59,688 bases of DNA from Anaeromonas frigoriresistens (GTDB lineage: Bacteria > Bacillota > Clostridia > Tissierellales > SIT17): positions 1 to 59,688 of the forward strand of contig NZ_WSFT01000044.1 of NCBI RefSeq assembly GCF_016820655.1, given 5' to 3'. Numbering within the stretch: position 1 is the stretch's first letter; every line of letters begins with the position of its first letter. The notes below the pieces were generated by a model. That model saw only the letters and a program-made list of their open reading frames with translations. It ran no database searches and was not told the DNA's origin. The translations under genes and the position numbers were made by a program. Shown in pieces: positions 7,925 through 36,907 of this stretch.

Positions 7925-8656
7925 CTATTTAATTACTAAAAAATTTAATCTTGTACTTTGATCATTAGGCAATTCCTGAGATAAACCATCATAAACTAAT
8001 ATTTTTGTGAAACCTATTTCTTTTAATAATTCCTTAATTTCCTTTTCTTGATAAGCCCTCTCTTGATGAAACTCATCAAATCTTTTATACATTCCATCTC
8101 CATTAACAAAGAAAGTAAGATAAAAATTTGCAATATTATCTTCAAATGTATTTTCCCAAATATAAAAGACATCATCTTTATCATATACAAATGTATTATC
8201 CCCTATAACCTTTGATAATTTATAATAGGAATTGATATCAAAAATGAAAATCCCATCATTTTGTAAATGATTGTATACATTAAGAAATACTTTTTTTAAG
8301 TCTTCTTTATCTATAATATAGTTAATACTATCACATATACTTATGATAGAATCAAACTTCTTATTAAATTTAAAGTTCCTCATATCCATATGTCGAATAG
8401 ATACATTCTTATACTTTCTAAGTTTTTTATATGCTATAGATAACATATCCTCTGATAAATCAAAACAAGTCATATTATAATTATCTTCAGCAAAGTGCTT
8501 CGTGAGATTTCCTGTACCACAGGCCATTTCTAAGATGGTATTAGGATTTATATTATTTTTATTATAAACATTTTTTATAAAATTATACCATTTTTCATAA
8601 TTAATATCCTCAGTCATTAATCTATCATATATTTCGGCAAATTCTTGATAAGCCAA
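7925..8656 (-). CDS. Class I SAM-dependent methyltransferase
   Basis: 243 residues starting with TTG at 8656, with AAAGGGGGAAG upstream; no ATG fits the frame nearby. Motif I is ILEMACGTGNLTKHFA (about residues 41-56), motif II ends in CFDLSEDML, and a post-I DMRNF and a motif IV region SIISICDSINYI follow. This is the Methyltransf_25/11 fold. The substrate cannot be told from sequence. It lies 31 bases downstream of the SASP gene, so the two could share a spore-phase transcript. Its ribosome site is perfectly complementary over 8 bases to the C-rich loop of the small RNA candidate at 9029-9110. Confidence 0.8.
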   Translation of the reverse strand: MAYQEFAEIYDRLMTEDINYEKWYNFIKNVYNKNNINPNTILEMACGTGNLTKHFAEDNYNMTCFDLSEDMLSIAYKKLRKYKNVSIRHMDMRNFKFNKKFDSIISICDSINYIIDKEDLKKVFLNVYNHLQNDGIFIFDINSYYKLSKVIGDNTFVYDKDDVFYIWENTFEDNIANFYLTFFVNGDGMYKRFDEFHQERAYQEKEIKELLKEIGFTKILVYDGLSQELPNDQSTRLNFLVIK

Positions 8657-8687
8657 TACTACTTCCCCCTTTTCTTTAGTTATTCAA

Positions 8688-8913: not shown

Positions 8914-8992
8914 AAAAATATTCATTATTTTTTTGGATCTATTTCCAAAAAGAAATATTTTTTTTAACTTTTTTTAAAATAACATCCAGCTG

Positions 8993-9022
8993 TTGACTTT
9001 ATATATTAGGAAGTGTTAAACT
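8993..9022 (+). promoter_or_regulatory. Putative promoter of small RNA candidate
   Basis: -35 TTGACT at 8993-8998, 18-base spacer, -10 TAAACT at 9017-9022 (TATACT at 9022-9027 is an alternative with a longer spacer). No gene follows on this strand, only a structured segment and a terminator. Confidence 0.5.
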
Positions 9023-9028
9023 ATACTT

Positions 9029-9110
9029 CGTTGGAAAATTACAACTTTCCCACTCCCCCTTTAATAGCTTTAAGCTATTAGGGCCAACTTCCCCCAAGTT
9101 GGCCTTTTTT
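9029..9110 (+). ncRNA. Candidate C-rich small RNA, about 82 nt
   Basis: The segment between a plausible promoter and a strong terminator holds three hairpins. They are GGAAA/TTTCC (9033-9037, 9046-9050), AATAGCTT/AAGCTATT (9063-9070, 9072-9079), and GGCCAACTT/AAGTTGGCC (9082-9090, 9096-9104). C-rich unpaired stretches lie at 9049-9059 (CCCACTCCCCC) and in the terminator loop at 9091-9095 (CCCCC). Firmicute regulatory RNAs often use such C-rich loops to block ribosome sites. No open frame of note is present. I do not recognise a known RNA family. The alternative is that this is only the readthrough terminator of an unseen element. Confidence 0.5.
9082..9110 (+). terminator. Intrinsic terminator, plus strand only
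   Basis: A 9-bp stem GGCCAACTT/AAGTTGGCC, loop CCCCC, followed by TTTTTT (9105-9110). The minus strand lacks a T tract after the stem, so it does not serve the convergent CPBP gene well. Confidence 0.85.
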
Positions 9111-9115
9111 AATAC

Positions 9116-10051
9116 CTAAATATAAACAAGTACATTCAAAACAATAAAACCTATTACTGTTATTATTATAGGTATATATTTTATTATTCCTTTTGACTCC
9201 CTATCATTTCTCATATCCTTTTCATTTTCACTGTCTAGCATCATCACTCTTCTATTTGGTAATTTCTTATATAAGTAATATGCTAATATACTAGTAAAAA
9301 AGGCAATACCTAGTAGAACAATTGTAGTTATTACTATACTCATTGTCTCAGATATTTCTATACTAGCCTCTTGGGTTTGTTCTATAGGTATATTTAATTT
9401 ACTAACTAAATACGTAAGAGTCCAAGCAAATGCATTATTTGTAGCATGACCAATTATACCTGCTATCAAAGAGTTTGTTCTATATACCATAAAACCAAAT
9501 AAAACACCCAAAAATATAGGACCTAAAAGATTTTGAAGATTAAAATGAAATATTCCAAAAAGTATTGCGGAAATGAAAATTGCTTTTTTATATCCTTTAT
9601 TTCCATAGGCTTTCATAATGAAGCCTCTAAACATTACTTCTTCACATATGCCAGGGGTTATAGCAATAATTAACAACCCTATTAAATATGATCCACCTGT
9701 AGATGGAGTAGGCAGTGGCGGGGCTTTGATTTCTCCAAAAAAGCTTATTATTATCATCATTAGAGCATTTAAAAATGCTCCTATTGGATATGCTAATAAT
9801 GTAATAGCTGGAATTAATAATACTTCTTTAAAACTTAATTTATTTAATTTTAAAACTTGTTTTAAACTATATCCTCTAACTTTTAAAAATATCAATACTG
9901 GCGCTAAGACTAAAATATATTCTGTTATTAAAAGTCCCGAGAAAATTTCTCTTTGCTGAGCTATTCCTCCTATTGTTATTAATAAAATAGCAATAACCAA
10001 ATATAAAATATTAGCCTCTAAAATTTTAGGCTTACTTTTAACAATACTCAC
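9116..10051 (-). CDS. CPBP-family intramembrane glutamic protease
   Basis: 311 residues with about eight hydrophobic segments. The Abi/CAAX-type catalytic motifs are visible: EEVMFRG (the EExxxR motif, about residues 137-143), FGIFHFN and IGHATNN. These enzymes cleave substrates in the membrane; targets are unknown here. The start is GTG at 10051 with GGGGAG 7 bases upstream. It begins 14 bases after the M20 gene ends, so the two are probably one transcript. Confidence 0.88.
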   Translation of the reverse strand: MSIVKSKPKILEANILYLVIAILLITIGGIAQQREIFSGLLITEYILVLAPVLIFLKVRGYSLKQVLKLNKLSFKEVLLIPAITLLAYPIGAFLNALMMIIISFFGEIKAPPLPTPSTGGSYLIGLLIIAITPGICEEVMFRGFIMKAYGNKGYKKAIFISAILFGIFHFNLQNLLGPIFLGVLFGFMVYRTNSLIAGIIGHATNNAFAWTLTYLVSKLNIPIEQTQEASIEISETMSIVITTIVLLGIAFFTSILAYYLYKKLPNRRVMMLDSENEKDMRNDRESKGIIKYIPIIITVIGFIVLNVLVYI

Positions 10052-32140: not shown

Positions 32141-32390
32141 AAAAAATACCTTCGCCTTATAATAAGGACGAAGGTATCCGCGTTACCACCTTAATTTCAA
32201 GAAAATCTTGACTCTCAATCAATTTAACGAACTCTGTCCGTTCAGATTTACTACTACTTCAACCTGAAAGCTCAGAAGCTACCTTCAACAAAAGTTTACT
32301 TTTGGATCCTTTCAGCCAAGGGATACCATTCTCTATAAGTTCTTTTGTCTACTCCTCTTCTTCATAGCCTATAATTATTTTATTTTATTA
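32141..32390 (-). promoter_or_regulatory. T-box leader of the valS transcript
   Basis: On the minus strand the conserved T-box core AAGGTGGTAACGCGG lies at about 32193-32179. It is followed by a terminator (ATACCTTCG / CGAAGGTAT, 32146-32177, then TTTTTT). Stem I holds GAAG...AGTA on one side and GAAGGTAG on the other (specifier loop), with ACAAAAG/CTTTTGT above it. The specifier is GTA (32282-32280, valine) or, one base earlier, GGT. Uncharged tRNA-Val should stabilise the antiterminator. With its promoter, this fills most of the gene-free stretch 32117-32620. Confidence 0.93.
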
Positions 32391-36669: not shown

Positions 36670-36907
36670 AAAAAAACCACCATCTCTAATAAATAGAGAC
36701 GATGGGTAAAATCGCGGTACCACTCTAGTTGACCAAAAGGTCCTCTTAAGTCCTTTAACGGAGGATGCCGTCAAGTTCTACTATTATTCAAACTTAATCT
36801 CCTAAGTCCATTCAGAAAAGTCTTAACACTGATCTTTCACCGTCATCAGCTCGCTATAGTTAGTATCTTAACCTACTAATCTTAGTCACAGATTTATCTT
36901 TATTTAA
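36670..36907 (-). promoter_or_regulatory. T-box leader of trpS
   Basis: Minus-strand AGAGTGGTACCGCGA (about 36725-36711) is the T-box core. It is followed by a terminator hairpin (36676-36707) and a T tract. In Stem I the specifier loop reads GAATGGA, giving TGG (36810-36808), the tryptophan codon. It takes up most of the 328-base gene-free stretch 36641-36968. Confidence 0.95.

Follow-up and report, generated by a model that had tools for sequence, protein, structure and literature searches.

Small RNAs (sRNAs) that use C-rich stretches to bind Shine-Dalgarno (SD) sequences are well studied in Bacilli. C-rich or CU-rich SD-binding motifs are established for RsaE, RoxS and LhrC (PMC8383071, PMC10433868). 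The C-runs of RoxS pair with SDs (PMC10433868), and roxS is controlled by Rex through an operator just downstream of its start (PMC5419742) and has a ResD/SrrA site near −65, with induction by NO (PMC4409812). LhrC of Listeria monocytogenes carries three CU-rich motifs, placed in a single-stranded part, in the terminator and in a further stem-loop, which act on a ribosome site (PMC8383071). FsrA and CsfG of Bacillus subtilis likewise have C- or CU-rich single-stranded regions, those of FsrA facing G-rich SDs (PMC8216469, PMC10433868, PMC3574147); these two RNAs are under the control of Fur or of sporulation sigma factors (PMC8216469), and the CsfG locus in B. subtilis lies between ylbG and ylbH (PMC3574147).

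In the 59,688-nucleotide stretch of DNA analyzed here (the window), a first-pass annotation had proposed a C-rich regulatory RNA on the plus strand at 8993–9110, composed of a −35/−10 pair followed by about 82 bases that form three hairpins and end in a T6 terminator, in a gap free of genes on that strand, and all of these parts were borne out. A sigma-A-type promoter with an extended −10 box spans 8993–9022 (plus strand; TTGACT at 8993–8998, an 18-base spacer and TG-T-TAAACT, in which TAAACT occupies 9017–9022). Chance yields many promoter-like matches in a region as A+T-rich as this one, which contained 44 of them compared with 30.3 ± 5.1 in shuffled versions, so the sequence of one locus is insufficient to decide; the conservation described below raises the element above chance, and it is far more than a chance assembly. 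From the promoter spacing we infer the start of a C-rich RNA of ~82 nt at 9029–9110 (plus strand). These 82 bases fold into three plus-strand hairpins with a predicted energy of −26.6 kcal/mol (z −5.9), equaled by none of 200 shuffled sequences: a 5′ hairpin (9030–9053), in whose core GGAAA (9033–9037) pairs with UUUCC (9046–9050); an A+U-rich middle hairpin (9062–9080), which differs between families when the copies are compared; and an intrinsic terminator (9081–9110) with a CCCCC loop at 9091–9095 (CRR2) and six T residues at 9105–9110. The terminator stem has 10 pairs in the fold and 11 in a terminator scan, which found the element's terminator on the plus strand only. No ORF of at least 40 amino acids lies on the plus strand over 9029–9110.

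Two exposed CCCCC stretches had also been claimed, and in the computed ensemble both runs (9055–9059 and 9091–9095) are unpaired with a probability of 0.99–1.0. The first sits in a candidate SD-binding motif, CRR1 (ACUCCCCCUUU, 9052–9062, plus strand); the exposed C-rich patches are CACUCCCCCUUUA, which lies in the linker, and the CCCCC of the terminator loop. The further claim that this loop is perfectly complementary, over 8 bases, to the ribosome site of a nearby methyltransferase gene held for the complementarity and failed for the loop. The 8-mer CTTCCCCC occurs twice in the window, at 8662 and 9088, and within the RNA only its CCCCC forms the loop, the CUU being mostly stem-paired (unpaired probabilities of 0.00, 0.01 and 0.15).

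The element is present in 21 genomes from nine families of one order, which we assigned as Tissierellales from the two named carriers, Caloranaerobacter azorensis and Thermohalobacter berrensis, both placed there by the NCBI taxonomy. A DNA search matched 18 of 60 genomes, that of the window included, and yielded 17 real copies; the match in genome G033 (L018) spans a promoter-like stretch only and was dropped. At E ≤ 0.01, a structured RNA model (R2) matched 33 of 249 genomes of the order, and we counted 19 of these as carrying the RNA, a count judged without G036, G063, G225, the second match in G040 and L043; the other 14 matches were not members or were unsettled (five in family f3, four in f4, three in f19 and one each in f14 and f5). 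Two further genomes outside these 19, one from the DNA search (G020) and one from synteny (G013), bring the total to 21. An exact pattern run over the named genomes hit 24 stretches, of which by eye 20 are chance and four (L059, L060, L067 and L072) are members, the latter assigned from their promoter and terminator context. At E ≤ 0.005, a further model (R3), searched against 391 genomes sampled from the class, found the window's own genome alone; the 20 remaining known carriers were apparently either not drawn or missed.

Each of the 21 copies has a −35 box starting TTGA, a −10 box of the form TGnTAnAmT, CRR1 and the C-run in the terminator loop, a count that is partly built in, as most copies were chosen by similarity to the window sequence. 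The promoter is an independent confirmation in L028, L032 and L035, which came from an RNA model without a promoter, and in L147, which came from synteny. Conservation is not confined to the terminator: over 13 of the 17 copies (four near-duplicates left out), mean pairwise identity is 0.857 in a 20-nt block at CRR1 and 0.828 in the −35 box, with 0.378 over the 60 bases upstream and 0.339 over the 45 downstream; in the −10 region it is 0.559, where we think that the alignment anchor was poor.

The first-pass annotation had suggested looking for C-runs that are conserved while the stems covary, and the copies display this pattern in their C-runs and terminator stem. In an alignment of 20 distinct rows, 9 of the 11 pairs of the terminator stem carry compensatory changes and 91.6% of cells are paired, with the C-run in the loop kept. 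The 5′ hairpin (helix 1) has moderate support, with 78.1% of cells paired and two of seven pairs changed on both sides. Covariation over the whole structure was 0.306, compared with 0.144 ± 0.014 after shuffling and 0.046–0.101 after sliding by 1 to 3 columns, in an alignment that was fitted to the structure we named and favors that structure. We used such a model because a plain MAFFT alignment of 15 copies contained no consensus pair, which we think reflects stems displaced by loops of differing length. Conservation is poor in the middle hairpin and partly so in the 5′ hairpin. Wobble pairs gave no strand evidence, there being no excess of G-U cells (16) over A-C cells (25) in the tested helices. 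The strand assignment rests on the promoter and the T-run; the T-run is absent in L011 and L013 and broken in L012 and L014. The copy of genome G029 (L015, 1430–1598) has ~30 extra bases between the promoter and the 5′ hairpin.

The sRNA gene also keeps a fixed locus. In the window it is flanked by a divergent gene for an alpha/beta-type small acid-soluble spore protein (SASP; PF00269; 8688–8876, minus strand) and a convergent gene for a CPBP (Rce1-like) intramembrane protease (PF02517; 9116–10051, minus strand), and beyond SASP lies the gene for a class I SAM methyltransferase (MTase; Methyltransf_25; 7925–8656, minus strand), whose SD complement CTTCCCCC occupies 8662–8669. SASP and CPBP flank the sRNA from opposite sides in 20 of the 21 loci; in the exception, L016, the sRNA is kept beside MTase, and both SASP and CPBP are absent from the 3-kb locus. 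MTase lies beyond SASP in 20 of the 21, none having been identified in L085 (genome G014). Among 25 other genomes of the order searched for SASP, 18 contained it; 16 of these lack the sRNA within the 420 bases upstream of SASP, and one (G013) has the full RNA. SASP is directly followed by CPBP in 11 sRNA-lacking genomes. When mapped on an MTase tree with 37 rows, presence of the sRNA needs 4 changes compared with 12.6 when shuffled, and a single supported clade holds 12 of the 16 sRNA-lacking rows; the gene therefore appears to have been passed on vertically and, at a few points, to have been lost or not acquired at all. The region upstream of SASP in G033 (L153) retains a promoter and a TTCCCCC hairpin, with CRR1 gone and no T-run; it is apparently a remnant of the sRNA, and we kept it outside the 21 because only the promoter and terminator loop remain.

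In plan, the locus resembles the described systems. As in other C-rich SD-binding sRNAs, its sequence contains a dedicated promoter and an intrinsic terminator in an intergenic gap, and conserved, accessible C-runs lie in the loop and linker. Like RsaE/RoxS, it combines a C-rich core (UCCCA-x-CCCCUUU) with flanking hairpins, an intrinsic terminator and its own promoter; unlike them, it has a C-run in the terminator loop and was not found in Bacilli. Its closest anatomical counterpart is LhrC, with CU-rich motifs in a single-stranded part and the terminator, although LhrC has its additional motif in the further stem-loop. Rfam holds an LhrC family, which is absent from the seven Rfam matches at E ≤ 10 at the locus. 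The C-rich single-stranded regions are shared with FsrA and CsfG, which sit at other loci; control by a sporulation sigma factor, looked for as a sigma-G-like promoter, was not seen here. Unlike CsfG, the element has SASP and then the Methyltransf_25 protein as neighbors in one direction and CPBP in the opposite one.

Every Rfam 15 family falls short of its gathering threshold at the locus, and the best is RsaE/RoxS (RF01820), with a full-length match of 32.8 bits against a curated cut-off of 79. The element could thus be thought a distant true ortholog of RsaE/RoxS, from a family older than the split between Bacilli and Tissierellales: the match is also the best RsaE match in 100 genomes of the order, two other copies have weak matches at the right spot (31.4 bits, E 0.29, in L004 and 28.2 bits, E 1.4, in L008), and the core UUUCCCACUCCCCCUUU is similar to the RsaE consensus UUCUCCCAUCCCCUUU in the covariance-model alignment, such an RsaE-like core (UCCCA..CCCCUUU) being present in the linker here and in all 21 copies. 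We nonetheless consider orthology improbable. The score is far under the cut-off, which none of the 100 genomes passes, 18 of the 20 other copies have no RsaE match at E ≤ 2, and the match begins at 9007, which sets promoter DNA against the 5′ stem of RsaE. The C-bearing loop of the RsaE 5′ hairpin is missing, the 5′ loop here being A/U-rich, and a Rex operator is missing as well: the best site in 8930–9070 has 4 mismatches to either of two consensus sequences, and the window contains 45 equally good places for one consensus and 139 for the other. A Bacillus sRNA model, ncr1015, scores 34.6 bits (E 0.33) on another copy (L014), which points to a shared C-rich make-up. In a control on 14 genomes, the RsaE model matched in B. 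subtilis and L. lactis, with one match over the cut-off. Given the sub-cut-off score, the promoter DNA standing in for the 5′ stem and the lack of a visible Rex operator, we did not assign the element to RsaE/RoxS. A shared origin of the C-rich core with RsaE is possible, and so is convergence, because RsaE and the new RNA would both mimic the anti-SD sequence.

With a spore-protein gene next door, the element might instead be a CsfG-like sRNA of sporulation that is made in the forespore. SASP adjoins the sRNA in all loci except L016, and CsfG has conserved CU-rich loops (PMC3574147), but the promoter boxes are of the sigma-A type, the closest sigma-G-like site on the plus strand has 3 mismatches to the consensus, and in L016 the sRNA persists beside MTase, SASP and CPBP being absent from the 3-kb locus; we consider this reading distinctly improbable. 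That CPBP ends at 9116 on the opposite strand, just beyond the terminator, might suggest a terminator and nothing more, an element that arose by chance, or a structure in the 3′ UTR of CPBP on the minus strand; with a terminator detected on the plus strand only, promoter boxes in every copy, CRR1 outside the terminator, and SASP running directly into CPBP in 11 genomes that lack the sRNA, we regard this as highly improbable. Scarcely credible is the idea that the element encodes a micropeptide instead of acting as RNA: the window copy does contain a 16-codon TTG frame, but a frame of at least 9 codons within the RNA exists in only 7 of the 21 copies, with differing lengths and peptides.

The element is thus probably the gene of a C-rich, SD-blocking, trans-acting sRNA of a new family, the analogy with RsaE/RoxS, FsrA and LhrC making SD blocking the preferred mode. 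The initial proposal of a C-rich sRNA drew support, as to an independent gene and its C-rich loops, from conservation beyond the terminator, constant C-runs and a covarying stem. Its own vegetative-type promoter would drive synthesis of a plus-strand RNA of ~82 nt that ends at the intrinsic terminator, and CACUCCCCCUUUA and the loop CCCCC would mimic the ribosome's anti-SD sequence, CACUCCCCCUUUA resembling the 3′ end of 16S rRNA. CACUCCCCCUUUA could pair without wobble to UAAAGGGGGAGUG, GGGGG-type SDs, and this short seed pairing would block ribosome loading on mRNAs with G-rich SDs. Hfq, which might help in such pairing, is encoded in 10 of the 11 sRNA-bearing genomes searched, the exception being G032.

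Searching the window's own genome with a strict pattern for GGGGGA SDs gave 83 matches compared with 26 for the reversed pattern, a few sites being counted twice; we name no trans-target from the 30 of these 83 AAGGGGGA-type matches that we examined. A 19-nt pattern for long mRNA complementarity matched 15 sites in the same genome, the sRNA's own complement among them, compared with 12 in the control. Because no long complementarity rose above this control, any action would have to use a short seed. On contig C5 of G000 (~33.5–41.3 kb), six AAGGGGGA-type ribosome sites lie on one strand within 8 kb (L088–L093), a clustering that is unusual for this SD type.

As for candidate targets, the sRNA may act mainly on its neighbors, lowering the divergent MTase and/or the convergent CPBP, the second candidate local target, through their G-rich SDs, a possible but rather doubtful reading. 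In the window, the MTase (METHYLTRANSFERASE) SD gives the best predicted duplex, ranking first of 52 genes (ORFs of at least 100 amino acids from our own caller) at −18.4 kcal/mol. It is in the top three at 10 of the 13 loci with an identified MTase (L083 was left out and L085 has none identified), most of which offer only 8–12 genes, but in the other three it ranks eighth of 9, fifth of 11 and last of 11. GGGG occurs in the MTase leaders of 14 of 20 loci with the sRNA compared with 4 of 16 without it; for the CPBP leaders the counts are 13 of 20 and 2 of 11 (the missing rows being MTase in L085, and CPBP in L016 and five sRNA-lacking loci); the baseline, which includes these neighbors, is 45 of 175 genes, and GGGG is absent from the leaders of Hsp33, read in 6 sRNA-bearing and 8 sRNA-lacking loci, and from those of Csp, read in 17 and 3. 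A family-mean permutation gave p values of 0.025 and 0.045 for the neighbor leaders, uncorrected for the four genes tested and too good because a single clade accounts for 12 of the 16 sRNA-lacking rows, which makes the leader contrast nearly one event. Moreover, the neighbor duplex energies showed no significant difference between bearing and lacking loci (p 0.08 and 0.19), the GGGGG of L003 is replaced by GGAGG in its near-twin L004, the exact 8-mer occurs in only one of 20 MTase leaders, that of the window, and GGGGG SDs are common throughout the carrier genomes. The methyltransferase suggested in the first pass is thus a weakly supported candidate target, its top-ranked duplex and its GGGG contrast each being qualified by these points, and local targeting of MTase and CPBP by the predicted pairing is a reasonable hypothesis rather than a finding.

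At the other extreme, the RNA might be an anti-SD mimic that sorts the whole translatome, lowering the GGGGG-SD class together, its own neighbors included. A GGGGG SD would then pair perfectly with the sRNA and by G-U wobble with 16S rRNA, and the class would comprise ~80 strong sites in the window's genome instead of a few chosen mRNAs. We think this unlikely. A point against the SD-blocking reading in general is that GGGGG-SD usage had a median ratio of 0.49 in 21 sRNA-bearing and 0.55 in 16 sRNA-lacking genomes (p 0.89; 38 genomes searched and 37 compared, G033 being left out as degenerate), and this equal usage gives no sign of genome-wide SD co-evolution.

Other RNA elements came to light in the same searches. 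A C-rich RNA of family f3 (L042 1501–1581, plus strand; L045 1281–1361, minus strand; L046 1501–1581, plus strand; L047 1501–1584, minus strand) has a 5′ hairpin with a CCCCCC loop, a UUCCCAAUACCCCUUUUAAGC linker, a second hairpin and a C-bearing terminator loop; it has TATAAT-like promoters, lies between aminotransferase-like and cysteine-desulfurase-like genes (named by eye) and has no Rfam match at E ≤ 1. It is possibly a distant relative of the new sRNA, or a parallel invention. In family f19, a CU-rich element (ACUUACCCUCUCCCCCUUG) followed by a terminator (L036 1501–1587, minus strand; L037 1501–1587, plus strand; L038 650–727, minus strand) lies between urocanate-hydratase-like and transcription-activator-like genes (also named by eye), and the copies in L036 and L038 have no Rfam match. 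The window itself contains two T-box leaders over the Rfam cut-off, at 36692–36898 and 32161–32374 (minus strand).

In the open-access literature, as covered by titles and the beginnings of abstracts, which is weak evidence, we found no report of an sRNA in Tissierellales or Caloranaerobacter, and work on C-rich sRNAs in Clostridium and C. difficile, covered in the same way, contained nothing describing the new RNA. The fixed locus, the full promoter and terminator, and the covarying stem make the ends and the seed of the RNA predictable. The element would thus represent a new family built on the same C-rich logic in an anaerobic order on which we found no sRNA study in that literature, and it bears on the question of whether the C-run sRNAs of Firmicutes are of ancient origin or have arisen repeatedly.
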